This document shows positions 1 through 55,863 of a DNA stretch of 55,863 nucleotides, one piece after another. The stretch's first letter is position 1; each line of letters begins with the position of its first letter. Source of the stretch: a virus. The translations under genes were made by a program, and so were the position numbers. Where the stretch lies: positions 1 through 55,863 of IMG/VR virus record IMGVR_UViG_3300028840_002412. One strand, 5' to 3'. The notes below the pieces were generated by a model that was not told the origin of the DNA, did no database searches, and saw nothing but the letters and a program-made list of their open reading frames with translations.

Positions 1-144
1 TTCCTCCGACTGCTCCTCAAACCAAAATAAGCAATCAGAGCAAATGGCGTCACCAGGGACGAGCTTATCCCAATCCGTAAATGTGGGGCGTACCCACTCA
101 TCGAACGGCTGGCCTTTCACGGCCCTGTTGCCACAGATCCGGCA
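1..144. repeat. Terminal direct repeat, left copy
   Basis: Bases 1-144 are identical to 55720-55863. The repeat lies inside csf1, whose reading frame runs uninterrupted through the junction, so the window is best read as a circular molecule (about 55,719 bp) linearised at an arbitrary point. A true short terminal repeat of packaged DNA is possible but less likely, because such repeats usually lie outside genes. Confidence 0.95.
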
Positions 145-150
145 TATCAT
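1..150 (-). CDS. csf1: Csf1, type IV-B CRISPR large-subunit-like protein (N-terminal part)
   Basis: This is the first 50 codons of csf1; the remainder is at 55072-55719 after closing the circle. The ATG at 150-148 starts MICRICGNRA, giving the first CxxC of a zinc finger (Cys3, Cys6). The second pair (CSDC) follows about 30 residues later. A four-cysteine N-terminal zinc finger is characteristic of Csf1, the Cas8-like subunit of type IV effector complexes. No strong Shine-Dalgarno is visible before this ATG, so translation may depend on the upstream gene at 206-400. Identity is inferred from the zinc finger and from the adjoining cas11-csf2-csf3-cysH genes. Confidence 0.85.
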   Translation of the reverse strand, partial: MICRICGNRAVKGQPFDEWVRPTFTDWDKLVPGDAICSDCLFWFEEQSEE

Positions 151-205
151 CGTGCGTGAGCTACAATCCCGACTTTCCCGACTTTGATCCAATCTACTTT
201 ATCCA

Positions 206-2635: not shown

Positions 2636-2761
2636 TTCTCCTCCGAGTAGCCGAAACCGGGCATACGCCCGGTCCGCCGGGACTGGCCGCCCGGTGCTGA
2701 CGATGGCAGGCCACATAGCGGCTCAAGCTGGAGCCGACACCAAAACGGAGCGGAGGATACA

Positions 2762-3175: not shown

Positions 3176-3192
3176 CCTCCCCCATCGCCCAA

Positions 3193-3220
3193 GCCGGGCG
3201 GGCTGTAGAATAGCCCGGCG
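3193..3220. repeat. Intergenic hairpin repeat, copy 1
   Basis: A 28-base unit, identical to 4103-4130, can fold with GGGCT pairing AGCCC around a GTAGAAT loop, flanked by GCC/GGC. It lies just after a stop codon, as the second copy does. Shorter or diverged relatives are at 3320-3342 and about 4470-4491. Confidence 0.85.
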
Positions 3221-3354: not shown

Positions 3355-4089
3355 ATGATAAAGTACTTGAGCGATGCGGATCTGAGCAGGGCCGACTTGA
3401 GCAAGGTCAACTTGAGCGAGATTGACCTTAGCAAGGCCGACTTGAGCGGAGCTTGGCTGAACAGAGCTAACCTGCGTGGGGCCAACCTGAGCGAGGCCGA
3501 CTTGAGCGGGGCCAGCCTGTACGAGGCCAACCTGAGCGGTGCCAGCTTGGCCGAGGTCGACCTGCGCGGTGCCGATCTGGGCGAGGCAGACCTGACCAGG
3601 GCCGACCTGACCAGGGCCGACCTGCGCGGGGCTGACCTGCGCGGTGCCGATCTGAGCGAGGCTGACCTGAGCGGGGCTGACCTGCGCCAGGCCGACCTGA
3701 GCAGGGCCAACCTGCACGAGGCCAACCTGAGCAGGGCCAACCTGCTCAGGGCCAGCATGGCCGAGGCCGATTTGACCGAGGCCGACCTGCGCAGGGCCGA
3801 CCTGCGCTGGGCCGACTTGTACGGGGTCGGCCTCTGCCAGGCCGACTTGCGCGGGACTGACCTGCGCGAGGCCGATTTGAGCGGAGCCCGCCTGGACTTT
3901 GTAAATTGGCCGCTCCAGAGCGGCTCATTTGACGTGGGCATTGACCTGGATCGGTTTCGCCAGTTGCTCTACCACATCTGCCGCGTCCAGTGCGGCGGCG
4001 CAAAAGAAATCCAGGGCCTCCTGGCCGGGGAGGCCAATCTCTGGACAGGGGTGGAGCGCTATCATCTGCGCTCCATCACGAAGGACTAG
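3355..4089 (+). CDS. Pentapeptide-repeat protein
   Basis: This 244-residue protein has about 35 consecutive A(D/N)LXX pentapeptides (residues about 8-185), followed by a non-repetitive C-terminal segment of about 60 residues. Pentapeptide repeats fold into a right-handed quadrilateral beta-helix. In the Qnr and MfpA families this fold mimics DNA and protects or inhibits gyrase, but many pentapeptide proteins have no known role. The ATG is preceded by AAGGAG. The position among early genes fits an inhibitor or DNA mimic, for example an anti-defence protein, but that is inference. The internal DNA repetition follows from the coding repeats. Confidence 0.9.
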   Translation: MIKYLSDADLSRADLSKVNLSEIDLSKADLSGAWLNRANLRGANLSEADLSGASLYEANLSGASLAEVDLRGADLGEADLTRADLTRADLRGADLRGADLSEADLSGADLRQADLSRANLHEANLSRANLLRASMAEADLTEADLRRADLRWADLYGVGLCQADLRGTDLREADLSGARLDFVNWPLQSGSFDVGIDLDRFRQLLYHICRVQCGGAKEIQGLLAGEANLWTGVERYHLRSITKD

Positions 4090-4102
4090 CCCCCACCGCC
4101 CA

Positions 4103-4130
4103 GCCGGGCGGGCTGTAGAATAGCCCGGCG
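4103..4130. repeat. Intergenic hairpin repeat, copy 2
   Basis: It is identical over 28 bases to 3193-3220 and likewise lies directly downstream of a stop codon (TAG at 4087-4089). Similar C-rich flanks precede both copies, suggesting duplication of an intergenic module rather than chance. Confidence 0.85.
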
Positions 4131-4173
4131 CTTATTCGAAGATAGTAGCCCGGAAGGGCAGAAAGAGACAAAG

Positions 4174-4452
4174 ATGTTGATTATCTCAAGACACGCCGGA
4201 GCCATCGAATGGCTCAAGCAGCGCGGCATCGAGGGCCGCGTGATTGTTCACGCGACCGTAGACGATATTCGCGGGGAGGACGTTATCGGCCACCTACCAT
4301 TGGCGCTGGCCTCCTGTGCCGCCAGCGTAACCACTATCGATCTCCCCTTTCTCCGGCCAGAACAGCGAGGGAAAGATCTCTCCCCGGAAGAGATGGACGA
4401 GGCGGGAGCATGCACGCGCACGTTCCGCGTGCGCGAGGTAGATTTGGGTTAG
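4174..4452 (+). CDS. csx16: Csx16-like protein (candidate ring nuclease / anti-type III factor)
   Basis: This 92-residue protein begins MLIISRHAGAIEWLKQRG. The SRHxGAxEW signature near the N-terminus, the central (D)VIGxLP(L/V)xLA segment and the ARGKxLSxEEM-like motif (QRGKDLSPEEMDEAGA) match the CRISPR-associated Csx16 family (VVA1548) as I know it. Csx16 occurs in type III CRISPR loci and has been proposed on bioinformatic grounds to be a ring nuclease that degrades cyclic oligoadenylate. No type III locus is present here, so on a phage it would plausibly dampen the host's type III signalling, analogous to AcrIII-1. Family assignment is fairly confident; the anti-CRISPR role is inference. 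Confidence 0.75.
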   Translation: MLIISRHAGAIEWLKQRGIEGRVIVHATVDDIRGEDVIGHLPLALASCAASVTTIDLPFLRPEQRGKDLSPEEMDEAGACTRTFRVREVDLG

Positions 4453-4620
4453 CCTCTTCCGCGCCGCCACGGGACGGCCTACAATATCCCGTCAAGGCCT
4501 GACTTTTCAGGCCCCTTGGGTGCTATCCGACCGGGACACCAAATGGAGTAGCGCGAGTAACCCGGTATCTCGCGGGCACCCAAGGGGGCTGAAACTAATA
4601 GACACAAGGAGAATGGACTG
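4453..4620 (+). ncRNA. Highly structured intergenic RNA with possible pseudoknot
   Basis: This 168-base gene-free stretch follows csx16. It contains CGGGA/TCCCG (4470-4474/4487-4491), a perfect hairpin GGCCTGA-CTTT-TCAGGCC (4496-4513) and a 12-bp stem 4512-4523/4576-4587. Inside that stem are two interleaved helices, ACCGGG/CCCGGT (4530-4535/4561-4566) and CGCGAG/CTCGCG (4552-4557/4569-4574), an H-type pseudoknot order. It ends at the AAGGAG site of the next gene. A cis-regulatory leader or a free small RNA would both fit. No known RNA class was recognised. Confidence 0.55.
4470..4491. repeat. Intergenic hairpin repeat, diverged copy
   Basis: CGGGACGGCCTACAATATCC then CG follows the same pattern as the 28-base unit (CGGG-nn-GGC-y, AATA, CCCG) with substitutions on both arms. 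Pairing of CGGGA with TCCCG is kept, which suggests structure is conserved rather than sequence. Confidence 0.45.
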
Positions 4621-4836
4621 ATGGACGCAAACGTCGCTTACTATGAGACCACATCCAAAACACTCGTGCGCGTGGTGCGCACCGAGGGGCGGATCGCCTA
4701 TCTGGACGACAGCACCACGGCCCACCTGCGCGACCTGTACCGCCCCCGCTGGCTGGTGCGTGCCGAGCAGGCCCTAGACGGCGCCCAGGGCGAGCGAGCC
4801 ACCGTCGAGGATGCCCGCTATGGAGGCCGCCCGTGA
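4621..4836 (+). CDS. Hypothetical early protein
   Basis: This is a 71-residue, mixed-charge soluble protein (MDANVAYYETTSKTLVRVVR...). The ATG at 4621 lies ten bases after AAGGAG; an ATG at 4613 is closed after one codon. Its stop overlaps the GTG of the next gene (GTGA), so the pair is probably translationally coupled. No recognisable domain. Confidence 0.6.
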   Translation: MDANVAYYETTSKTLVRVVRTEGRIAYLDDSTTAHLRDLYRPRWLVRAEQALDGAQGERATVEDARYGGRP

Positions 4837-6733: not shown

Positions 6734-7999
6734 TATACTGATTTTTGTGTAAAAAGTGGGAACCAGGTATCCTTGGTAGCGGCAAAACTAACCAAGGAGG
6801 ACACCATGGCTCCCAGACAGAAGAATACTACAGTTGAAGCGTTGAGTCAAAACGATTTCCAGTCCTTGCTCCAGGAACAGATCCGTATGGCCGTGCGGTT
6901 GACGCTGGTCACGATCCTGGAGGAAGAGGTCAGCGGCCTGGTCGGGGCCTTGCCCTACGAGCGCACACCTGAGCGGCGCGATTATCGAAATGGATATTAC
7001 ACACGCGATCTAGATACGACAGTCGGTCTGCTCGAAGACCTGTCGGTGCCGCGTACGCGCAATGGACATCAGACCCAGGTCTTTGAGAAGTACAAGCGCC
7101 GCCGGGCCGAGTTGGACAACGCCATCGGTGATATGTTCGTTGGCGGCGTCAGCACCCGCAAGGCCGGCGAGGTGGTCGAATCCTTGACAGGCTCCAAGCC
7201 CAGCCCGTCCACCGTGTCTCGGGTGTTCCACACCCTGGAAGGAGAGTATGAGGCCTGGAAGACGCGACCACTCGAAGAGCACTACGAATACGCCTTTGCC
7301 GATGGGACCTACTTTACGGTAATCTACGATGGTGAAGGTCACAAGATGCCCATCCTGGCCGTGATCGGCATCAACGTCACCGGCCAACGAGAGGTGTTAG
7401 GCTTCACCATTGGCGATCGGGAGAACCAAACGGCCTGGGAGAATCTCTTGGAGGATCTCAAGACCCGCGGGGTCAAAACGGTCGGATTATGGATCACCGA
7501 TGGCAACCAAGCCATGATCAATGCCCTGGAGCTCAAGTTCCCGGACAGCCCGCGACAGCGGTGTGTCAAGCACAAGATGGATAATGTGCTGGGCTACGTA
7601 CCCAACAAGCAGCGCGAGCCCGTGCGAGCGGAGCTGCGGGCGATCTTCTACCAGAAGAATCGTGAAGCGGCCGACCAAGAGGTAGCTGCCTTCTGTGAGA
7701 AGTTCGAACCGATCTACCCGTCGGCCGTGGCCTGCCTGAAACGCGATTTGGAGGCTTGCCTGACCTTCTACGCCTTTCCCAAGGCGCACTGGAAGACGAT
7801 CCGCACGACCAACGTCATCGAGCGGCTGTACAATGAGGTCAAGCGACGCACCAAAAAGATGGCGACGGCCTTCCGAAACGAAAACAGTTGCTTGTTAATG
7901 TTCTATGCTATCGTACGAAGTATGAAGTTCCGAAGGATATCGATGCCCAAGACCGCTGCCTAGCCTGGACCCCTTTTACACAGAACTTGACACACTACC
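6729..7999 (+). mobile_element. IS256-family insertion sequence, 1,271 bp
   Basis: The element is bounded by the GATTGACG duplication. The left end reads GGTAGTATACTG and the right end (reverse complement) GGTAGTGTGTCA; both continue imperfectly into a shared TGTGTAAAA followed by a degenerate GGG and CCAGG segment. These are imperfect terminal inverted repeats of about 35-45 bases. It carries one transposase gene in the direction of the host operon. Intact ends and duplication indicate a fairly recent insertion into the phage. Confidence 0.9.
6806..7963 (+). CDS. IS256-family (mutator-type) transposase
   Basis: This 385-residue protein is full length for the family. The ATG at 6806 follows AAGGAGG; an earlier GTG frame extension is unlikely. 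DDE catalytic residues are visible as Asp166 (FADGTY), Asp232 (WITDGNQAM) and Glu339 ([11 protein letters not shown]), with the family's C-terminal RRTKKM segment after it. The N-terminal part (residues 1-140) is the DNA-binding helical region. It should catalyse cut-and-paste or copy-out transposition at the terminal repeats of its own element. No frameshift or stop is seen, so it is likely active. Confidence 0.95.
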
Positions 8000-8007: not shown

Positions 8008-8081
8008 CCGATGTGCAAGACGAGATCAAGTACGTGTGGGGGATCATCATTGAGAAATGCGTAGAGGAGCACCCACAATGA
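8008..8081 (+). pseudogene. 3' remnant of the interrupted zinc-ribbon gene
   Basis: In the restored frame this encodes a 24-residue helical tail (ADVQDEIKYVWGIIIEKCVE then EHPQ) ending in TGA at 8079-8081. The stop overlaps the ATG of the replication gene at 8078. Loss of this fused tail is the main effect of the insertion; coupling to the replication gene may also be weakened. Confidence 0.75.
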
Positions 8082-9019
8082 GCATCCGAGTTATGACCAA
8101 AGTATGGGACACGTCACAGCAAAGCGGGAGCGCCCTGCTCTTGCTCCTGGCCCTGGCAGACCACGCCGCCGATGATGGGTTTTGCTGGCCCGGCGTGGAA
8201 CGGTTGGCGCACAAAATCAGAATGTCCGAGCGCAGTGTCACCCGCCTACTCAAGACATTAGAGGAGGACGGCGACCTGCACGTCATCCGCCAGAACGGAC
8301 AGCACAATTGGTATGTGGTGCGCGTCGGAATGTCTGACCAAGACGTGATTGAAACCCTCAAACAACGCCGTTTTGATACCCCTGACAACTTGTCACCCCT
8401 GACACCCCCGACAGTGCCCACTGACACAGCTACGCCGGAACCACTGACACAGTTATGTCAGCCGAACCATCATAAACCGTCAGTTAACCACCAGAAAGAA
8501 CCGCCTGCGGCGGATTCTCCCCCTCCTTCCGAGGAGCCTTTTTACCTGGAAGGGGAAACGTCCACAGCACCACGGCAACGTCACACCGTCGAGGAGTGTA
8601 AAGCCGCCACGCGCAAAGCCCTGGAGGCCAACGCACGCAACGGGAATGGTCGTGCTGCTGTTGCCGACGCCTCTATCGATCCGTGGTTGTCCACCGCGCA
8701 GGAGTTCAGCGCGCTGATCATTACACCGTTTGAGAATGTACCGGACAGCAGGCGCCGAATGTGGGCCAATGACATCCGCGAGATCGTCGAGGACAGCGAG
8801 ACGGGCAAAGGCCCAGGGGAGGTGTGCAGAGCGATCCGCTCGATCTCTACCTACCCGGCCTATGAATGGCTGCGGTCGGCCAACCGGCCTACGCACCGGG
8901 GATTTGCTGACGCGCTGCTGGCGGTGTTGTGGGGGCAGGCGTTGCCAGAAAAGGGTAATGGTAGTCCATCGACGCCGCGCACCGCCCCGAGCGGTTATAG
9001 GGTGATGCCCAGTGGATAA
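8078..9019 (+). CDS. Winged-helix replication protein (phage O-like / replisome organiser)
   Basis: This 313-residue protein has an N-terminal winged-helix domain (about residues 1-90). It shows the pattern typical of phage replication initiators: LLALADHAADDGFCWPGVERLA, MSERSVTRLLKTLEEDG as recognition helix, then a WYVV wing. A Pro/Thr-rich linker (about 100-165) and a C-terminal helical domain follow. The ATG at 8078 is preceded by GAGGAG, and the stop overlaps the helicase gene. By analogy it binds the phage origin and loads the DnaB-like ATPase encoded next; that role is inferred from domain order and context. Confidence 0.75.
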   Translation: MSIRVMTKVWDTSQQSGSALLLLLALADHAADDGFCWPGVERLAHKIRMSERSVTRLLKTLEEDGDLHVIRQNGQHNWYVVRVGMSDQDVIETLKQRRFDTPDNLSPLTPPTVPTDTATPEPLTQLCQPNHHKPSVNHQKEPPAADSPPPSEEPFYLEGETSTAPRQRHTVEECKAATRKALEANARNGNGRAAVADASIDPWLSTAQEFSALIITPFENVPDSRRRMWANDIREIVEDSETGKGPGEVCRAIRSISTYPAYEWLRSANRPTHRGFADALLAVLWGQALPEKGNGSPSTPRTAPSGYRVMPSG

Positions 9020-9989
9020 GTCATTTGACTACAACCACTTTTTGCACAAGCCTGATGACCAGGCGGGCGAGTTCCTGCGCTGGGCACAGAGCATCAAGGA
9101 CTCACCAGGCATCCCGTTTGGCGTAGACGAGGTGGATCGCTCTGTCTTGCCGCTCCGCAAGGGCACCGAGACGATCTTATTGGGTAGGCCGGGGATGTGC
9201 AAAACCTCGATGCTGCTGGCCCTGGCCCGACAGGAGAGCGACCGGATCGTGGCGAGGGGCGCGTGGGACGAGCAAGCCGTGGTGTACGTGTCCTACGAGC
9301 AAACCAGCGAGGAATTGAGCGCCATTCTACAGACAGACATCCCGCTGGGCGACCTCGTGCGGGGACGCGCCGATGCGCTGGCCATCCGCCAAGCATCCTA
9401 CCCGATGGTCAGTCGGGGATTGTGGATCGTAGGCCACGGATTGAGCCGGGCTGACCCAAGAGCGCCCCGCCTGACGCCTGAGAGCGTTTGGCGCACGATC
9501 CGGGTGATCCAGGAGGAATACCACCGCGAGATCACGCTGCTCTGCTTTGACTACCTCCAGATCGTGCCCATCGAACACGCACGCGACCGGGTGCAGGCCG
9601 TCACCGAGATTCCGATCCGCGTCAAGGAACTGGCGATGGCCATCGGCTGCCCGGTGGTGCTGGCCGCGCAAGCCGGGCGGCAGGTAGACGAGTACAAGTG
9701 GCCGATCCCCGCGATGGCTGATTGCCAGTGGGGATCGAGCATCGAGCAGACCGCCGACCTCGTGCTGGCGCTGTGGAGGCCCTACAACACCTATGGCCCG
9801 GGCGCTGAACCGCTCCCCGCCGGCGTGATTGGGGACAAGCCTTATCCCGTCACCGACAAGCTGCTGGTTTTGAGAATGTTAAAGCAAAGATTCCAAGCGG
9901 GTCACTATACATGGGCATTGTCGCTCGATCCAGAAACGCTGGAAATGAGAAGCATGTCTGTGGAGAAAGAACCGCTGGAGGCGTGGTGA
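9012..9989 (+). CDS. DnaB-like replicative helicase ATPase
   Basis: This 325-residue RecA-fold protein has Walker A GRPGMCKT (58-65), a Walker B strand ending at Asp180 (ITLLCFDYLQI), a Gln-rich sensor strand (VVLAAQAGRQV) and a C-terminal SIEQTADLVLAL segment as in DnaB C-terminal domains. It lacks a separate N-terminal primase-interaction domain, so it resembles short phage helicases. It starts at a GTG overlapping the previous stop and ends overlapping the primase start. Cytoplasmic; it should unwind the fork with the primase. Confidence 0.85.
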   Translation: MDKSFDYNHFLHKPDDQAGEFLRWAQSIKDSPGIPFGVDEVDRSVLPLRKGTETILLGRPGMCKTSMLLALARQESDRIVARGAWDEQAVVYVSYEQTSEELSAILQTDIPLGDLVRGRADALAIRQASYPMVSRGLWIVGHGLSRADPRAPRLTPESVWRTIRVIQEEYHREITLLCFDYLQIVPIEHARDRVQAVTEIPIRVKELAMAIGCPVVLAAQAGRQVDEYKWPIPAMADCQWGSSIEQTADLVLALWRPYNTYGPGAEPLPAGVIGDKPYPVTDKLLVLRMLKQRFQAGHYTWALSLDPETLEMRSMSVEKEPLEAW

Positions 9990-10930
9990 TGGACATCCCC
10001 ACGATTGAGCACGCGATCCAACTTGCACAAGAGCGCTGGCCGAGTACAGTATGGCGCGTCAAGACGCGAGACGAGGCGTGCAGCCCCTGTCCGTGGTGTG
10101 GTGGGGATGATCGGTTCGTTCTCTGGCTGTCGGGATACTACATGTGCCGCGCCGGGGATGGACATTGCGGGCGCGTGGGGTGGCTGGACGAGGAGAGCGC
10201 CACGGAATGGACGCCGGAAGAGCGACGGTTGCGCCGCCTAGAGGCCAAGCAAGCGCACGCGCAGCAAGAACGCGCTGACCTGGAGCGCCGCCTGTCTGCT
10301 ATCGAACGCCTGAACCGCTCGCGCATCCACGAACGGTACTATGCCAACCTGGACGCCGCCGCCTATGAGTGGTGGATCGGGAAGGGCTGCGAGCTCTACA
10401 CGATCCACGACTACAAGCTGGGCTACTGCCCACGCTGCCCCACCGACCGCGAGCACCGCCCGTCCTACACGATCCCGCTGCCGAACCAAGAGCGGACCGC
10501 CCTGCTGAACCTGCGCCACCGCCTGGCCGATGCGCCAAATGGCGACAAATATAGACCTGAACTTGCCGGGCTCGGATCGTGCTTGGCCTTCACTCATCAC
10601 CTGGTCGACGCCGAGTGCGGTATCATCGTCGAGGGCAGTATCAAGGCGATGATCGCCGCGCAGCACGGATTCCCCGCCGTGGGCATCCTGGGCAAGGGTG
10701 GCAAATTCCACAAGGACTGGCTCGACCTGTTCCCGGCCGGCAAGCCGATCTACATTGCCCTCGACCCCGACGCGCAAGAGAGTGCCGAGCGCCTGGGTAC
10801 CGGGATTGCCAAGACAGGCAAAGAGGTCTATGTGGCGCAATTCCCCGCCAAGCCGGATGATATGCTGGTCGAGGGCTGCACCACGCGGGAGTGGGCGCAC
10901 TATCTCAAGCTGGCAAGGAGGATACATTGA
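9989..10930 (+). CDS. Primase with zinc-binding and Toprim domains
   Basis: This 313-residue protein has an N-terminal zinc-binding domain (CPWCGGDDRF at 34-43, with Cys53 and Cys60) of the DnaG/gp4 type. A charged coiled linker (about 75-110) is followed by a Toprim domain (IIVEGSIKAM, then IYIALDPDA near residue 260). These supply the conserved Glu and DxD residues that bind metal during RNA primer synthesis. It overlaps the helicase stop by one base (TGATG). Helicase and primase are separate genes here, unlike T7 gp4. Confidence 0.85.
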   Translation: MDIPTIEHAIQLAQERWPSTVWRVKTRDEACSPCPWCGGDDRFVLWLSGYYMCRAGDGHCGRVGWLDEESATEWTPEERRLRRLEAKQAHAQQERADLERRLSAIERLNRSRIHERYYANLDAAAYEWWIGKGCELYTIHDYKLGYCPRCPTDREHRPSYTIPLPNQERTALLNLRHRLADAPNGDKYRPELAGLGSCLAFTHHLVDAECGIIVEGSIKAMIAAQHGFPAVGILGKGGKFHKDWLDLFPAGKPIYIALDPDAQESAERLGTGIAKTGKEVYVAQFPAKPDDMLVEGCTTREWAHYLKLARRIH

Positions 10931-46728: not shown

Positions 46729-48462
46729 CTATTTGCCCACCATCAGAGACGCCTTTTGTTCAACCACCTCTGCTATAACACACTCGGCCAGTTGGTCCAA
46801 GTCTATTGACCCCTCTGCGAAATTCAGGGCAATGCGCCTCAGTGCTGACTGTGCCTCCTGTTGCCCTTGCTCTCGTCCAGTTACGCCGAACGCCTCGTCG
46901 CTGGTCAGCTCTGCGAACTGATCGGCGCCTATCGCTTGCAGGGCAGGCCGCACGAGGGCGGCGTCAATCGCGGCCACGGCGCCCGCCGGGATGATGCCCA
47001 GGCCCGCCGCCTCGTGCAGGCTGGCCATCAGCTTGCTGCTCGCGTCCACCATCGGCGGGAAATCGGGCAGCGAGTAGGAATCAATGCTGACCTCTGCATC
47101 TGTGGACTGGAGCGTCACGCTTCCATACTGCTCTGCGAACGAGAACACGATCCGCGCCACGCGCCGGAATTGCGCCGACCAGAACCGCTTGTACTTGGAG
47201 AACAAGTAGCTCTGTACCTTGTCCATCTCGACGGCGGTTGCCCAGCGCGAGGCGTCCAGGCCCAGCGAGGTGGGAAACAAGCCCGCGCCCAGGCCGGCCA
47301 TCCACGCAAACAGCTTGTTATCCGCCTCGGCGTCGCTGGCCCCGGTTCTCATCGGAAGCTCGCTCGTCTCGACGGCGCGGTTTTCGACGTGCCACGAACC
47401 GGGCGCTGCCGGCGGGTTGGTGTCGGTGAATTGGCTCTGCGACAGATTAGACGCGATGGTGTCGATCACGGACTGGACGGCGCGCGATCCGCCCTGCACC
47501 CGCGACCGGCGCACGAACTGCGCGACCGAAAGCGCCACGGTGAAACGGGCCTGCGCAAAGCGCTTGTGCGTCCGCAGCCAGGGCAGGGCCACGGTCAGGA
47601 GCGGCCAGCCCCACAGGCTGTCCAGATCCTTGCGGTTGTGGGCGATGTGGAGCATGCAGACCGCCGTGCCGGGGCCGGTCTCGATGCCGCCGAGCTGCTG
47701 GCCATTGCGCACCTGATCGGCACGCCGGGCATCGCGTGGGACTTTGCGCTGATCTTGGAGCGTCTGCCACGCCTCGTCCACCGTGATCGCCGCGTCCTCC
47801 CCGCCGCAGTAGAGCGCCCAGTCGGGATAGTAGAGGTCGGTCGGGTCACCCTCTCCCGTCACCCGGCTGCGCTTGTAGAACCAGGGCGTCAAGGCGTCCT
47901 CGGGATTGGCGACGATCTCGATCGCGTCTTGCTGGACGTTCCGCACGGTGGCGAGGCCGTCCACCGTGGAAGCAAAGAATGCCAAGAACGCGTTGCCGTC
48001 CACCAGGACACGCTCGCTTAGGGAATCAAGGTGATCCTGGCCCAAGAGCGCGGCGTTGCGGTCCGCGTTCCAGAACTCGTCCAGGACCGGCTGGCCATTG
48101 GCCTCGTCCTCGGCGCTGACCTGCACCGCGTCCCCGATGCCCCAGGCGGTCCAGGTCCACACCGCCCACTGTGCCAAGGGGGACTGGGAGCGCCACGCCT
48201 GGCGAGATATCTTGATCGCCCATTTGCGCTCGCGCTCCAGGCTGGTCTCCTGCGCGCCGATGTAGTCCCAGAGCAAATCCTGGACCATCAGGTCCAGGTA
48301 CTCCTCGTCGTACTCAGAGAGCGCCTGGACGTGCTCTTGAATGCGCGAGAGGGGCGCATCGGTCTCGGCCCATCTCCAGGTCTCCAGGACGGCCTCACGT
48401 GCGCGCTGCCGCTCCTGGAGCTGTACGTCCACCCCGCGCCATAGCTGGCCTTTTCGATTCAT
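46729..48462 (-). CDS. Portal protein
   Basis: This 577-residue protein starts at the ATG at 48462 (GGAGGACATCGGACA upstream) and overlaps the small gene before it. Length, the position after large terminase and the central sequence (VLVDGNAFLAFFASTVDG, IETGPGTAVCMLHIAHNRKD, LTVALPWLRTHKRFAQARFT) fit siphophage portals that form the 12-subunit DNA channel. The segment LGLDASRWATAVEMDKVQSY resembles the portal crown/stem transition. Confidence 0.75.
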   Translation of the reverse strand: MNRKGQLWRGVDVQLQERQRAREAVLETWRWAETDAPLSRIQEHVQALSEYDEEYLDLMVQDLLWDYIGAQETSLERERKWAIKISRQAWRSQSPLAQWAVWTWTAWGIGDAVQVSAEDEANGQPVLDEFWNADRNAALLGQDHLDSLSERVLVDGNAFLAFFASTVDGLATVRNVQQDAIEIVANPEDALTPWFYKRSRVTGEGDPTDLYYPDWALYCGGEDAAITVDEAWQTLQDQRKVPRDARRADQVRNGQQLGGIETGPGTAVCMLHIAHNRKDLDSLWGWPLLTVALPWLRTHKRFAQARFTVALSVAQFVRRSRVQGGSRAVQSVIDTIASNLSQSQFTDTNPPAAPGSWHVENRAVETSELPMRTGASDAEADNKLFAWMAGLGAGLFPTSLGLDASRWATAVEMDKVQSYLFSKYKRFWSAQFRRVARIVFSFAEQYGSVTLQSTDAEVSIDSYSLPDFPPMVDASSKLMASLHEAAGLGIIPAGAVAAIDAALVRPALQAIGADQFAELTSDEAFGVTGREQGQQEAQSALRRIALNFAEGSIDLDQLAECVIAEVVEQKASLMVGK

Positions 48463-48653
48463 TGTCCGATGTCCTCCGGTGCGATGCCGGCCATCACGCG
48501 CAGCCAGTGCCCGCGCTCGATGATGCCCACCACGCGCCACAGGCCGACCAGGAATACGAGCCGCCCGCGACGCACGCGCACCCGGTTGGCCTCAAAGAAG
48601 CGCACCGGACCGGCCTCGGTCTGGACGGCGAATGAGATCAGGTTATTGGGCAT
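48459..48653 (-). CDS. Small basic protein between terminase and portal
   Basis: This 64-residue basic protein (MPNNLISFAVQTEAGPVRFF...) overlaps the portal start by four bases. It is beta-like with many Arg and may be an adaptor or DNA-binding assembly factor. No family recognised. Confidence 0.55.
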   Translation of the reverse strand: MPNNLISFAVQTEAGPVRFFEANRVRVRRGRLVFLVGLWRVVGIIERGHWLRVMAGIAPEDIGQ

Positions 48654-48662
48654 AGGTCTCTC

Positions 48663-50012
48663 CTACCAATTCCCGCCGATGGACGCCAGGCGGTCGACAA
48701 CTTGTACGCGCTCGTGGGGTTCAGCCAAAAAGGCGACGCCATAGCGTAGGCAGTCCGCAAGGTGAAACACGTCCTTATCCTCTATGTTGTCCGTCGGCTG
48801 GCCGTGGATCACCTTGCGCCGATAGCTGCCCACGTCACTCAAGAGCTGCGGGCACGTGTCGTGAATCACGATCTTGAAATCACGCAGCAGCTCGATCACC
48901 CGGTCAATCTGCGACCAAACCCCGATGTTGGGAGGCTCGCCCAGGGGGATGCCGTGCGCCTGCCAATCGGTGCGCGCTTGTCGCTCGGAAGGCCCGCCGC
49001 CGACCCAGGCAAAGACCGTCTCGCCCTGGCTCAGTCTCAAGATGTTCCGGACGTGCTGCCCGGTCGGGGCACCATAGGGCTCCAGGTACTCCCGGTAGAC
49101 GTTCAGCACCCGCGCCGTCGGATCGAACGCCATCCAGAGCGCTCCGATCATCGCGCCCACCGGATCGATGGCGACGATCCTTGGCCAGAGCGCCGGCGGC
49201 TTGAACCCGCGCACCTTGTGCCGCTCCTCGTCAAAGAGCGAGTAGATCGCGCCCTCGGACACGACCCAGACGCCATACCGCAACCGCAGCTTGCGGGCCC
49301 CGGTCAGCCGGTCCAGCGTGCCGATGTACTCTTCCCCGGACTCGGTCCACTCGCCGTGCGCGCTGTCCCAAAGCACCGGGTTGTCTGTGTGCCGGGTCTC
49401 CAGGAGCGTCGCCTGCCCCTTGTCACAGCGCTGCTTGAGCCAGTGCATCGGGCTCTCTGGGTTGCAGTCGGCAAGCATCTGCCGGAAGGGCATCCCCTGA
49501 CCCCGCAAGCGGGTGAGCAAAGTTTCGTAGCCCCACAGGCTGCCCTCTTCGGCCTGTTGCCAGTAGATCAGATCATACTCGCTGGACAAAATGCGCGCCG
49601 GCTTGTCCATCCCGCCGATGTTGATCTGACTGCCGTTCGGGTAGCGGTAGGAGGAGCGCCAGGGCCGCTTGGGGCCGTCCAGAGCCATCGGATGCAAGGG
49701 CCCTAGCACGTGGTTCTCGAACGTTTCCAGGCCGGTCTCGCTCAGGCTGGCGCGCGTCTGTCGCACGATCAGCGCGCGTGTTCCGGGATAGGTGTTGCAG
49801 CAGTAGTGCAGCTTTTCCAGGCACGCCCTCGATTTGCCGGTCCCTGCTGGCCCCGAGACGACCAGCTCACGATCCGTGTTGAACAGGACGCGCCCGGCAT
49901 TGCCTCGTGGTGCATAGTGCTGGTCAGGGTTGATCGTCCCGATCAGCGTCCGGTCTGTGAGCGTCCGCTGATAGTCCGAACATTCCCTTAAGAGCGTCTC
50001 TACGTTCAGCAT
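48663..50012 (-). CDS. terL: Terminase large subunit
   Basis: This 449-residue protein has Walker A GPAGTGKS (54-61), a Walker B-like strand (SEYDLIYWQQAEE), a coupling region (LADCNPES) and C-terminal nuclease motifs (IVAIDPVG, later EDKDVFHLADCLRYG) of the RNase H-like nuclease. It is the ATP-driven packaging motor and the DNA-cutting enzyme. The first about 30 codons overlap the small terminase; a later start is possible. Confidence 0.85.
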   Translation of the reverse strand: MLNVETLLRECSDYQRTLTDRTLIGTINPDQHYAPRGNAGRVLFNTDRELVVSGPAGTGKSRACLEKLHYCCNTYPGTRALIVRQTRASLSETGLETFENHVLGPLHPMALDGPKRPWRSSYRYPNGSQINIGGMDKPARILSSEYDLIYWQQAEEGSLWGYETLLTRLRGQGMPFRQMLADCNPESPMHWLKQRCDKGQATLLETRHTDNPVLWDSAHGEWTESGEEYIGTLDRLTGARKLRLRYGVWVVSEGAIYSLFDEERHKVRGFKPPALWPRIVAIDPVGAMIGALWMAFDPTARVLNVYREYLEPYGAPTGQHVRNILRLSQGETVFAWVGGGPSERQARTDWQAHGIPLGEPPNIGVWSQIDRVIELLRDFKIVIHDTCPQLLSDVGSYRRKVIHGQPTDNIEDKDVFHLADCLRYGVAFLAEPHERVQVVDRLASIGGNW

Positions 50013-52207: not shown

Positions 52208-52345
52208 CTATACCCTCCTTGGCGCTTTAGGCGCCACTCTGTTCTGTAGAATCACGCGGCTCTCCGGTCCGATGGTTAAATGCCCGAACGTGCTCCGAGT
52301 GATTTGCGAATAGCTCCAAGTTTTCGATCCATCTGCAGTAATCAC
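52208..52345 (-). CDS. Small protein following cysH
   Basis: This 45-residue frame starts at a GTG overlapping the cysH stop (GTGA). It reads MITADGSKTWSYSQITRSTF then a beta-like GHLTIGPESRVILQNRV and a basic tail, and ends in TAG after the next gene's ribosome site. A hairpin GGCGC-TTTAG-GCGCC lies within its last codons (52221-52235). Coupling to cysH suggests a functional link. Confidence 0.5.
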   Translation of the reverse strand: MITADGSKTWSYSQITRSTFGHLTIGPESRVILQNRVAPKAPRRV

Positions 52346-53091
52346 ACAAAGCCCTTCACTTCTGGAAATTCGCTCGCCAATCGATTCCACAACTCCATAT
52401 AATTCCGCTTGAGCCACGCCCAGCGTCCCCACCGACGCTTGGTGCTGCCCGCCCAGTAGGATAGCCGCTGATCCGCTTCCGGCATATCCCACATCTTGTC
52501 GTACACGCCACAGTACGGCAGGCGCTTCGTGACGATATAGGCCCATACGTCACTGTACGTCCAGTCGTGAATTGGCTGGCAACCCCACAACCCATCACGC
52601 TTGTATTGGAACACCGCGCCGCGCATCTTTGCATTCATCCGTCGTCCGTGGCTCTCCTCTGCCCGCAGGCCATACGCTACGCCATCAAACCCGTACTGCT
52701 CGATCAACCGCCGAATTGGCTCATACACCGTCGTGCGCATCGTCTCGCGTTCTAGCGCCGGGCCACCTTCGATCCCGCCATAGCGCCGGAACGTGTCCAG
52801 CAACGGTTCCAGCGTCGGAAACACGATCACATTCTTCGTGCTGGTCAGCGTCTCCTTGCTCTCGGGATACGCGCAGCCCGCGTCAAAATACACCGCTGGC
52901 GTCTCCCGCCGCTGCTCACGCACCAGATCAAGCACGCACGTTGAATCCTTGCCCGTCGAAAATGCAATATACGGATTCTCGACCAGGGCCAGCCACTCGG
53001 ACACACGCCGCTGCGCCTGTGCCACCCGCCAGCGGTGCAGGCGCAGTCGGCTGTATAGCTCGAATCGCTCGCGGGCCTCTTCAGGCATCAT
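52342..53091 (-). CDS. cysH: CysH-like PP-loop ATPase of type IV-B CRISPR loci
   Basis: This 249-residue protein has the PP-loop STGKDS (45-50) and the fold pattern of PAPS reductases/ATP pyrophosphatases (PAVYFDAGCAYPESKETL, GVAYGLRAEESHGRRMNAKM, QPIHDWTYSDVWAYI). The C-terminal ECGLH-type cysteine motif of true PAPS reductases is absent, so sulfonucleotide reduction is unlikely. CysH-like proteins are the signature accessory of type IV-B CRISPR loci, and this one lies downstream of csf3. Its biochemical role there is unknown; ATP-dependent modification is possible. Tandem ATGs 53091/53088 overlap the previous stop. Confidence 0.85.
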   Translation of the reverse strand: MMPEEARERFELYSRLRLHRWRVAQAQRRVSEWLALVENPYIAFSTGKDSTCVLDLVREQRRETPAVYFDAGCAYPESKETLTSTKNVIVFPTLEPLLDTFRRYGGIEGGPALERETMRTTVYEPIRRLIEQYGFDGVAYGLRAEESHGRRMNAKMRGAVFQYKRDGLWGCQPIHDWTYSDVWAYIVTKRLPYCGVYDKMWDMPEADQRLSYWAGSTKRRWGRWAWLKRNYMELWNRLASEFPEVKGFV

Positions 53092-53225
53092 TGATTGAGC
53101 GACTTTCGAATAGCAGCATACCGCTCGCCATAGTGGTGCGCCGCCATAAGCAAAGACTCGTAAAACCAGAGATTCCAACGCAAGCGCGCTAGTTGCACTT
53201 GGCACCAAATCCACTTTTTCTTCAT
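53088..53225 (-). CDS. Small basic protein between csf3 and cysH
   Basis: This 45-residue frame has its ATG at 53225 after AAGGAGG and its TGA overlapping the cysH ATG. It is rich in Trp, Lys and Arg (MKKKWIWCQVQLARLRWNLW). The strong ribosome site and coupling favour a real protein, possibly an RNA-binding partner of the Csf complex. No family recognised. Confidence 0.5.
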   Translation of the reverse strand: MKKKWIWCQVQLARLRWNLWFYESLLMAAHHYGERYAAIRKSLNQ

Positions 53226-53234
53226 CATTCCTCC

Positions 53235-53924
53235 TTACGGCAGCACCAGCGTCATCTGGTTATCCCGCTTCCAGTAGCTAGGCCGTATACCATAATTGCC
53301 GATATTCAGATCAAACTCGTGGCCGTCTAGATCCTCTGGTGGTATGCCGCGCATCAAGCGACCATCCGACCGCCAAACCGACCAGTCCCAAGACCACGGT
53401 TCGATCTGCCAACGCGCCACGCGCCCCCAGCCCTGTACGGCCTTTTTGCCCAGGTGCGTGACGGTGGACAGGAAGTGCTCGATCTCTTTTTTGTCGCCGA
53501 TGCAGTACCACTCAATCCACAGCGCGGCGCGATAAAGCACTGGCATGTGATATGCCTTGTACTTGCCCTGCTCGATGATCACCTTGCCCCGCCGCCGGTC
53601 AAAATCCACCAAATCCACCAACTGCGATCTGAATCGCTTGTTCCAATAGTCCTGACCCTCGACCTCGTGCGACCACTGCGCCCACGAACACTGATAGTAC
53701 CAGTGGCGATGCCCTGGGTGCAGGATGCCCAGCGGCAGTGTCGCCACAGGCGCATTGTTGGTGTACTCGCCCGGTACTGTCATCTCTAGCGCGCCCAGCG
53801 CATCTCGATGATTCTGATAGAGCAGAATGCCATCTAACGGCAAGTGCCGATCCGCCACTACACCGCTGCGCAGCCAGGCGCGCACGCGCAGTGGTTCCAG
53901 GTCGTAGCGATCACGATAGGCCAT
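53235..53924 (-). CDS. csf3: Csf3, Cas5-like subunit of type IV-B complex
   Basis: This 229-residue protein has a RAMP-like fold with a glycine-rich loop GKKAVQGWGRVA (159-170), an Arg-rich start (DLEPLRVRAWLRSGVVADRH) and an aromatic C-terminal half, matching Csf3/Cas5. In type IV effector complexes Csf3 caps the 5' end of the guide RNA. It overlaps csf2 by 14 bases and follows cas11-csf2 in the usual type IV-B order. Confidence 0.85.
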   Translation of the reverse strand: MAYRDRYDLEPLRVRAWLRSGVVADRHLPLDGILLYQNHRDALGALEMTVPGEYTNNAPVATLPLGILHPGHRHWYYQCSWAQWSHEVEGQDYWNKRFRSQLVDLVDFDRRRGKVIIEQGKYKAYHMPVLYRAALWIEWYCIGDKKEIEHFLSTVTHLGKKAVQGWGRVARWQIEPWSWDWSVWRSDGRLMRGIPPEDLDGHEFDLNIGNYGIRPSYWKRDNQMTLVLP

Positions 53925-54885
53925 CGATCAGCCCCCGGATGTCGTCGCCGTGCTCTTGGATGTGCTCCATATAGCGCGACCCAAGCGGCAGATCAACCTC
54001 GCGGCCATCCGGCGCGAGGCGCGGGTTGATCTCGATCCATTGATCAAATCGGATCGCAACCTTGCCGTGTCCAACGCCGCTCTTGCCACCAATGTACGGC
54101 TGCCGGCCAAACTCGGCCAGGGTCACGGCCAGCGCCTCAAACTCGAGATCTGTAGCATCGTCCAGGGTCAAATCCCAAAAGAGCGGTGTGCCTGCCGCCA
54201 GCGTCTCGACAAAGTAGCGCATCTGCTGCTTCTGGCCGGTCTCGACCACCACATCCTCTTTTGTGCCACTCTTTTGCCGTTCTATGCTGGCTCTGGCCTC
54301 CAAAAGAGCGCGAACGTCAGGCGCGATCAATTGGCGCAGGTTCTCATTCTTTTCGTCATCGCGCCGCGTATACGCTTCCTCTTGGCAAAAATCCCACACC
54401 GACTTGATCTCGCCTTGCGCGTACCGCTCCGGCAAGATGTGCGCTGTCTCGTTACAGATCGGGATCGCCTTGCCAATCTTGAGTTTGCCCGGCATGATCT
54501 GGTTGCCCATCGCGCCGCCAAACAGCGCGACAAGCGGGATCAGCTCACGCCACTGCCGCGCCAGATCGATGTCCAGCCCGCGCCCGGCATCTTTGGTCAG
54601 CGCGCCGCCGGAAAACAAAAAGTAGAACGCGGCCAGCGACATGCCAATAGGCACGCCATCTTCGCCTGGTTCGCCATAGCCAAGCTGCCGCGTCATATGC
54701 AGCATCCCCCGGTCGCGCAAGATGCCGCGCAAGGCATTGCCGCTGATGACTGGGATCTCTTCCACGCTCCCGTCTGGCTGGACGATCTTTTCGCGCCGCA
54801 AACGCGCGTTGACACCGAACGTGTCGCCGATATGGCTGATGCTCGTCAATGCCGTCATTGTGCCTTCAAACACGTAGGTTTTCAT
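53911..54885 (-). CDS. csf2: Csf2, Cas7-like backbone subunit of type IV-B complex
   Basis: This 324-residue protein shows Cas7-RAMP features: VISGNALRGILRDRG (46-60) as the RNA-facing helix motif and YIGGKSGVGHGKV (264-276) as the C-terminal glycine-rich loop. An aromatic/hydrophobic core (FYFLFSGGALTKDAGRGLDI) matches the long insertion of Csf2. It should polymerise along guide RNA. The ATG at 54885 overlaps the cas11 stop (ATGA). Confidence 0.9.
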   Translation of the reverse strand: MKTYVFEGTMTALTSISHIGDTFGVNARLRREKIVQPDGSVEEIPVISGNALRGILRDRGMLHMTRQLGYGEPGEDGVPIGMSLAAFYFLFSGGALTKDAGRGLDIDLARQWRELIPLVALFGGAMGNQIMPGKLKIGKAIPICNETAHILPERYAQGEIKSVWDFCQEEAYTRRDDEKNENLRQLIAPDVRALLEARASIERQKSGTKEDVVVETGQKQQMRYFVETLAAGTPLFWDLTLDDATDLEFEALAVTLAEFGRQPYIGGKSGVGHGKVAIRFDQWIEINPRLAPDGREVDLPLGSRYMEHIQEHGDDIRGLIDGLS

Positions 54886-55256
54886 TCTGATTCTGCCTCC
54901 CATTCGTCAGTGTGCTCTGCTTCCCACGCGGCGCGCCGTTCTTGGTTTGCCACGCGCACGTGCAACACGAGCACTTTGGTTTGATCGCGCAACAACCTGA
55001 GCATCGCGCTGCCATCCGCGCTATTCAAGATCGCCTCTGCGCGATCGCGATCCTCGGCATTGCGCCCGATGTCACAGCTCAACTTCTGGCAAAGCGAGCT
55101 GACACATCTGTCCAGGTTGCTCGTGTAGGCCGCGCTGCGGAGCTGATCCTCGAACTGCTGCCAGATATTCATCCGGTAGCGGTTCTTGTAGTCCGCCGGG
55201 ATCCCCCGCCATAGAATCGCCAACAGCTCTATAGCCTGCTCTTTTGTTTCGTCCAC
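54882..55256 (-). CDS. cas11: Cas11-like small subunit of type IV-B complex
   Basis: This 124-residue, largely helical protein lies between csf1 and csf2, the place of cas11 in type IV-B. The GTG at 55256 (VDETKEQAIELLAILWRGIP) is chosen because AAAGGA lies upstream, although an ATG at 55295 exists inside csf1. It should line the belly of the complex. Identity rests on size, helicity and order. Confidence 0.75.
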   Translation of the reverse strand: MDETKEQAIELLAILWRGIPADYKNRYRMNIWQQFEDQLRSAAYTSNLDRCVSSLCQKLSCDIGRNAEDRDRAEAILNSADGSAMLRLLRDQTKVLVLHVRVANQERRAAWEAEHTDEWEAESE

Positions 55257-55863
55257 CCGCCTGTCCTTTCTGTGCCAGGAAAAGGGCGAGTGCAAAGAGC
55301 AGACTGCCGCGCTGCGGCGCGACCTCGGTCTCTAGCGCCTGCCACTCTTCCAGGCCATACTTCAGGATACGATACCCGGCATAGTCGCCCGTCTCAATCT
55401 CTGACTTGCTGAATCCCGTGTACAACGCCTCCACAGCACACAGCAGCGAGCGCAGTTCCTCCGGGTTCAGGTAGAGCGCCTGCTCCTCCACTTGCACCCA
55501 ACCCGCTTTAGCGTCGGGTGGGTTGCGCTGCGCCCGAAACGCGATGTGCTTTTGGCCGCTCATTGCGATAGCGGCCAGTTCGGGGAAAGGCTCACCAAGT
55601 AGCAAAACTTGCATTCTGCCTTTGTCGCCTTTCGAGAGAGGTATCCACTCTCCCGCAACAATAAAGTGGCTATAATTCCGCATCCGTTGCGGCTTTTCCT
55701 TCCCTACTCGCCGCGCCAATTCCTCCGACTGCTCCTCAAACCAAAATAAGCAATCAGAGCAAATGGCGTCACCAGGGACGAGCTTATCCCAATCCGTAAA
55801 TGTGGGGCGTACCCACTCATCGAACGGCTGGCCTTTCACGGCCCTGTTGCCACAGATCCGGCA
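55072..55863 (-). CDS. csf1: Csf1, type IV-B CRISPR large-subunit-like protein (main part)
   Basis: Continuing from 150-1 through the circle junction, the whole frame has 265 codons. This segment has the second zinc pair CSDC (with GDAICSDCLFWFEEQ), a beta-rich middle (MRNYSHFIVAGEWIPLSKGD, KGRMQVLLLGEPF, QKHIAFRAQRN) and helices (EELRSLLCAVEALYTGFS). Csf1 is the Cas8-like subunit. From 55256 on, the frame overlaps cas11 by about 185 bases; its last 60 residues are Gly/Gln/Pro-rich and may not be native. A stop or shift near 55,260 would give a more typical product. Confidence 0.85.
   Translation of the reverse strand, partial: CRICGNRAVKGQPFDEWVRPTFTDWDKLVPGDAICSDCLFWFEEQSEELARRVGKEKPQRMRNYSHFIVAGEWIPLSKGDKGRMQVLLLGEPFPELAAIAMSGQKHIAFRAQRNPPDAKAGWVQVEEQALYLNPEELRSLLCAVEALYTGFSKSEIETGDYAGYRILKYGLEEWQALETEVAPQRGSLLFALALFLAQKGQAGGRNKRAGYRAVGDSMAGDPGGLQEPLPDEYLAAVRGSAPQRGLHEQPGQMCQLALPEVEL
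55720..55863. repeat. Terminal direct repeat, right copy
   Basis: It is identical to 1-144; see the left copy. It lies inside csf1 and joins the two halves in frame. Confidence 0.95.

Follow-up and report, generated by a model that had tools for sequence, protein, structure and literature searches.

The csx16 gene and its surroundings

The window, by which we mean the whole stretch of viral DNA analysed here (55,863 nucleotides, a single IMG/VR viral record), carries a short gene of the Csx16 family within a phage genome that also encodes a type IV-B module (Table 1). The Pfam profile PF09652 (Cas_VVA1548, that is, Csx16) matches its product with 63.4 bits (cut-off 25; E 2.3e-17), covering 84 of the 92 residues (protein residues 3–86, profile positions 2–90 of 91), which places the protein in the family by the gathering cut-off. 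Three PADLOC Csx16 models also match, the best at 7e-18. The NCBIfam model for Csx16, TIGR02620, gave 40.8 bits (E 1.9e-10), below its curated cut-off of 46.35, and by this measure the protein falls outside the equivalog. When a profile built from 32 relatives, with the window copy excluded, was run against the six-frame translation of the window, csx16 was the single match (94.7 bits), and the same profile matched none of 2000 shuffled versions of the protein. The G+C content at the three codon positions (0.67/0.45/0.69) agrees with a real gene, in contrast to that of the overlapping frame.

Table 1. Positions of the features described in the window
Feature	Position	Strand	Evidence or remark
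csx16 (Cas_VVA1548), candidate cA4 ring nuclease	4174–4452	+	92 aa, ATG start
Pentapeptide-repeat protein, 244 aa	3355–4089	+	Pfam PF00805 8e-66; directly upstream of csx16
41-nt repeat with inverted repeat around TAGAAT	4090–4130	+	7-bp arms; about 44 nt upstream of csx16
Second copy of the 41-nt repeat	3180–3220	+	5' of the pentapeptide-repeat gene
Similar inverted repeat around TACAAT	4470–4491	+	just 3' of csx16, upstream of the gene at 4621
Strongly folded stretch	4505–4595	+	long near-perfect stem; just 3' of csx16
Type II hammerhead ribozyme	2649–2715	+	52.9 bits (Rfam gathering 37), E 4e-8; about 1.5 kb upstream of csx16
IS256/Mutator-family transposase	6773–7963	+	insertion within the phage genome
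Replication genes: O-like initiator, DnaB-like helicase, further ORF without Pfam match	8057–10930	+	downstream of csx16, same strand
Portal and large terminase	46729–50012	-	PHROGs 3e-11 and 2.1e-22
Type IV-B module, whole	52342–55863 and 1–161	-	
CysH-like PAPS reductase domain protein	52342–53214	-	Pfam PF01507 2.8e-19
Type IV Cas5 (Csf3)	53235–53924	-	PADLOC 7e-52
Type IV Cas7 (Csf2)	53911–54903	-	PADLOC 3.6e-82
Type IV Cas11	54882–55295	-	PADLOC 1.8e-28
Type IV Cas8-like Csf1	55072–55863	-	PADLOC 3.1e-21

The earlier note had recognised the protein by its SRHxGAxEW start and central motifs, and this reading was borne out. Both the start and a central GxLP motif are present, and the residues conserved in the family (R6, H7, G9, W13, H26, G39, P42, R65 and G66), including those of the RHxG, H26, GxLP and RG positions, are all kept. 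With cellular Csx16 proteins from type III loci (PF09652, TIGR02620) the window copy shares a whole-length domain, a similar size and the RHxGA, GxLP and RG(E/D)L motifs, at about 30–37% identity to the aligned sequences. It differs from them in having no type III genes nearby, in being four residues shorter after GxLP and in scoring below the NCBIfam cut-off. Together, these results establish that the gene product is a member of the Csx16 family. Matches to DARPin and ankyrin proteins in a sequence search of the PDB (E down to 3e-8 with a profile) were rejected; they sum weak repeat matches to GxxPLHLAA, with no single convincing stretch.

The pentapeptide-repeat protein encoded upstream is a possible accessory counter-defence neighbour. 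The two copies of the 41-nt repeat, which precede this gene and csx16, respectively, are 88% identical and represent a putative promoter/operator or RNA hairpin, and the two genes could be under shared control. The copy next to csx16 contains no sigma-70 match, and its folding is not unusual (z -0.6); a Twister-sister candidate at 4078–4144 was not believed, with 21.9 bits against a gathering threshold of 34 (E 0.12). Folding of the stretch 3' of csx16 was strong (-53.5 kcal/mol over 4490–4610, z -4.6), and this structure had no Rfam match and no exact match of its core in the viral contigs.

The phage genome and its type IV-B module

The first and last 144 bases of the window are identical, and csf1 runs across this terminal repeat, with its first codons near position 160 at the window start (translation across the junction: MICRICGNRAVKGQ). 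The window therefore represents a whole phage genome (55,719 bp), which is either circular or terminally redundant. A tape measure gene is recognisable besides the terminase, portal, DnaB-like helicase and O-like initiator, which together identify a tailed phage. The nearest plasmid copies of the inserted transposase are found in Herpetosiphon (67% identity), and this resemblance gives a hint of a Chloroflexota host.

It had been proposed that csx16 stands alone in the early region. The gene indeed stands alone and adjoins the replication region, no Cas10 was found in the complete phage genome, and no type III gene was among the 25 PADLOC families listed in a scan of the 56 window ORFs. Thus, csx16 is not placed here as a type III accessory gene in a locus with Cas10.

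The genes for Csf1, Cas11, Csf2, Csf3 and the CysH-like protein, the latter being the usual type IV-B partner, lie together, and the gene content of the type IV-B module is complete. Such systems have already been described in viruses (PMC10848311). Among the 18 records with csx16 (15 virus and three plasmid), type IV Cas7 was found in the window alone and in none of the 14 other virus records, and the coexistence of csx16 with type IV-B is therefore an individual case. The type IV-B module of the window is real, but the suggested CRISPR warfare on two fronts is no general pattern, and a general link between csx16 and type IV-B was rejected, as type IV Cas7 is absent from all 17 other records.

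Predicted structure of the Csx16 protein

From an alignment of 12 sequences, AlphaFold2 predicted a Rossmann-like alpha/beta domain (pLDDT 96, pTM 0.83) in which five beta strands (residues 2–4, 22–24, 36–39, 51–56 and 80–84) alternate with helices. The five-stranded, CARF-like fold is thus present in the predicted model, and its core layout is the same as that of a published five-stranded Csx16 model (PMC12409355). A Foldseek search with the window model against PDB and BFVD returned nothing significant, and accordingly no significant solved relative. Within the noise of this search were a Cad1 CARF domain, Csx1-Crn2 (TM 0.47) and AFV3-109 (2j6b; E 2.9, TM 0.44). The published Csx16 model also matched 2J6B, with a DALI Z of 4.8 (PMC12409355), and the occurrence of this entry in both comparisons of predicted models amounts to weak agreement on the fold.

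AcrIII-1 (Crn2) has the same proposed task as the window protein, the destruction of cA4, and the two show a weak fold resemblance through 2j6b and Csx1-Crn2. However, they have no sequence family match, and the Foldseek E values of about 1–3 are not significant. The window protein is therefore not a member of AcrIII-1 by sequence or by significant fold match.

Occurrence of csx16 in viruses and plasmids

A survey of other phages, which the earlier note had suggested, extended the occurrence of the gene. Scans in which the window copy and small alignments served as queries revealed csx16 in 12 further IMG/VR viral contigs (L008–L016 and L043–L045), whose Csx16 proteins share 38–66% identity with the window copy over the best segment; those of L013 and L014 are identical to each other. 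An eight-sequence alignment was too diverse for scanning the collection, and closer sets were used instead. The Drs3 and Deinococcus copies described below gave no further viral relatives as single queries, and L016 as a query found no viral relative beyond itself. The neighbours of the viral copies include terminases, portals and methyltransferases, so that viral hallmark genes are present. In L008 (2614–3135), the Csx16 domain lies at the end of an open frame of 173 aa, which has a putative start and includes additional N-terminal sequence. L043, L044 and L045 show no nucleotide match to the window and share almost no other protein with it, which indicates that csx16 moves among unrelated phages. 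Such a pattern would be expected if the gene is a mobile accessory used in counter-defence.

Annotated Csx16-like copies in the phage collection belong to the Methanobacterium viruses Drs3 (two records) and PhiF3, which may be the two phage genomes of PMC12409355. As in the window, csx16 stands alone in these tailed viruses without Cas10; they carry a longer form of the protein, while the window copy is short, and the Drs3 protein is 35% identical to it. Three plasmids encode Csx16 without Cas10, namely Deinococcus pDEIPR02, Allomeiothermus pMESIL02 and one archaeal plasmid. The Csx16 of pMESIL02 forms the start of a 671-aa protein. This protein (L004:6001–8016, Allomeiothermus silvanus) contains a second partial Csx16-like stretch, and two more Csx16 domains occur at 72458–73078 on the same plasmid, within a single open frame of 265 aa. 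In an Aeromonas media plasmid, csx16 is located inside a type III-B locus with Cas10.

The Cas10 palm domain was found in none of the 15 virus records with csx16 (the window, the 12 IMG/VR contigs, Drs3 and PhiF3), some of which are fragments. Of 15 cellular Csx16 genomes that served as a control, nine had Cas10 on the same contig, about 4–22 kb away, and in most of the other six it was on another contig of the draft assembly or weakly matched.

Short and long forms of Csx16

The cellular Csx16 proteins of Pseudomonadota cluster together (support 98/96) and score 116–140 bits against the Pfam profile; the range is 30–97 bits for viral copies and for the domains of plasmids that lack Cas10. Four residues after the GxLP-helix are missing from the bacterial-phage, Deinococcota and archaeal-plasmid copies and present in cellular and methanogen-virus Csx16. 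In a tree whose cellular members come from Pseudomonadota and one archaeal phylum, and whose deep short-form branches lack resolution, Drs3, PhiF3 and L016 cluster with cellular Csx16 of the methanogen lineage from Cas10-holding genomes (99/96). Csx16 therefore probably entered viruses on at least two occasions.

It is conceivable, albeit rather doubtful, that the short form represents a lineage of ring nucleases which is adapted to viruses and plasmids, differs in kinetics or specificity and is exchanged among unrelated phages, and that type III loci may have drawn Csx16 from mobile elements. An origin in mobile elements has reportedly been argued likewise for Crn2/AcrIII-1.

Proposed function and alternatives

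The predominant signal of type III systems is cA4. On infection, a type III CRISPR system (Cas10) of the host would sense phage RNA and make cyclic tetra-adenylate. The phage Csx16, probably as a Rossmann-like homodimer, would bind cA4 and cut it to linear products, whereby the cA4-activated effectors would stay silent and the infection could proceed. Judged from family membership, the retained conserved residues, the modelled fold, the stand-alone position in a complete phage without Cas10 and the recurrence in unrelated viruses and plasmids, the window csx16 likely encodes an anti-type III factor of this kind, and cA4 degradation seems the most economical function for its product. One purified Csx16 has been shown to cleave cA4 but neither cA3 nor cA6 (Hoikkala et al. 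2025, PMC12409355). Ring nuclease activity of the family, as put forward in the earlier note, was therefore demonstrated experimentally in 2025, while for the window copy we infer it, together with early production of this divergent protein and the use of cA4 by the host. Since four residues are missing after GxLP, activity or specificity could differ.

This deletion could also have altered catalysis, in which case the divergent phage copy would act as a sponge that sequesters cA4, or another cyclic nucleotide, and hardly cleaves it. Csx15, another CARF-like protein, indeed binds cA4 with very slow cleavage; however, it has not been seen in phages, and the signal output of type III systems is so large that sponging is thought to be ineffective (PMC13148439). 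In addition, the phage copy has lost none of its charged conserved residues (R6, H7, H26 and R65), and we regard a sponge as unlikely.

A ring nuclease directed at another cyclic-oligonucleotide defence (CBASS or a Panoptes-like mini-Cas10 pathway) instead of type III CRISPR would agree with the differences in sequence and length between the mobile-element group and cellular Csx16, and phage proteins are also aimed at other second-messenger systems. The predominance of cA4 in type III signalling argues against such a target. So does the specificity of the tested Csx16 (PMC12409355), and this explanation appears quite improbable.

That plasmids, too, carry Csx16 without Cas10 would suit a regulator that benefits a lysogen, or that dampens self-damage by the type III system of another mobile element, rather than a lytic weapon. 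This is very unlikely, considering that Pfam recognised no integrase in the 56 window ORFs, so that a lysogenic life is not evident, and that Cas10 is on none of the viral csx16 records. These three, the sponge, another cyclic-nucleotide target and the lysogeny dampener, are the main rivals. That Csx16 belongs to the type IV-B complex of the phage itself, or assists it, is scarcely credible despite the distance of only about 4 kb between csx16 and csf1 on the circular genome, since opposite-strand genes lie between them, the 17 other virus and plasmid records with csx16 lack type IV Cas7, and type IV-B has, to our knowledge, no cyclase.

Degradation of cA4 by a phage protein has a precedent in the viral ring nuclease AcrIII-1 (cited in PMC12409355). 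Crn4b resembles Csx16 in being a ring nuclease that phages and plasmids carry as well as type III loci, but its fold is unrelated and its cOA specificity is broad (PMC12830947). The earlier description of phage Csx16 as a distinct solution proved less new than claimed, because two of 28,114 phage genomes were already reported to contain it (Hoikkala et al. 2025, PMC12409355). The present analysis usefully adds that csx16 recurs in many unrelated viruses, that it is separated there from Cas10, and that a short-form group exists.

If the window copy destroys cA4, it would belong to a viral countermeasure against type III CRISPR that has no sequence relationship to AcrIII-1 and is known to date from very few of the phages sequenced. 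The divergent copies from bacterial phages, methanogen viruses and Deinococcota plasmids would serve as test cases for comparing the speed and specificity of phage and cellular ring nucleases.
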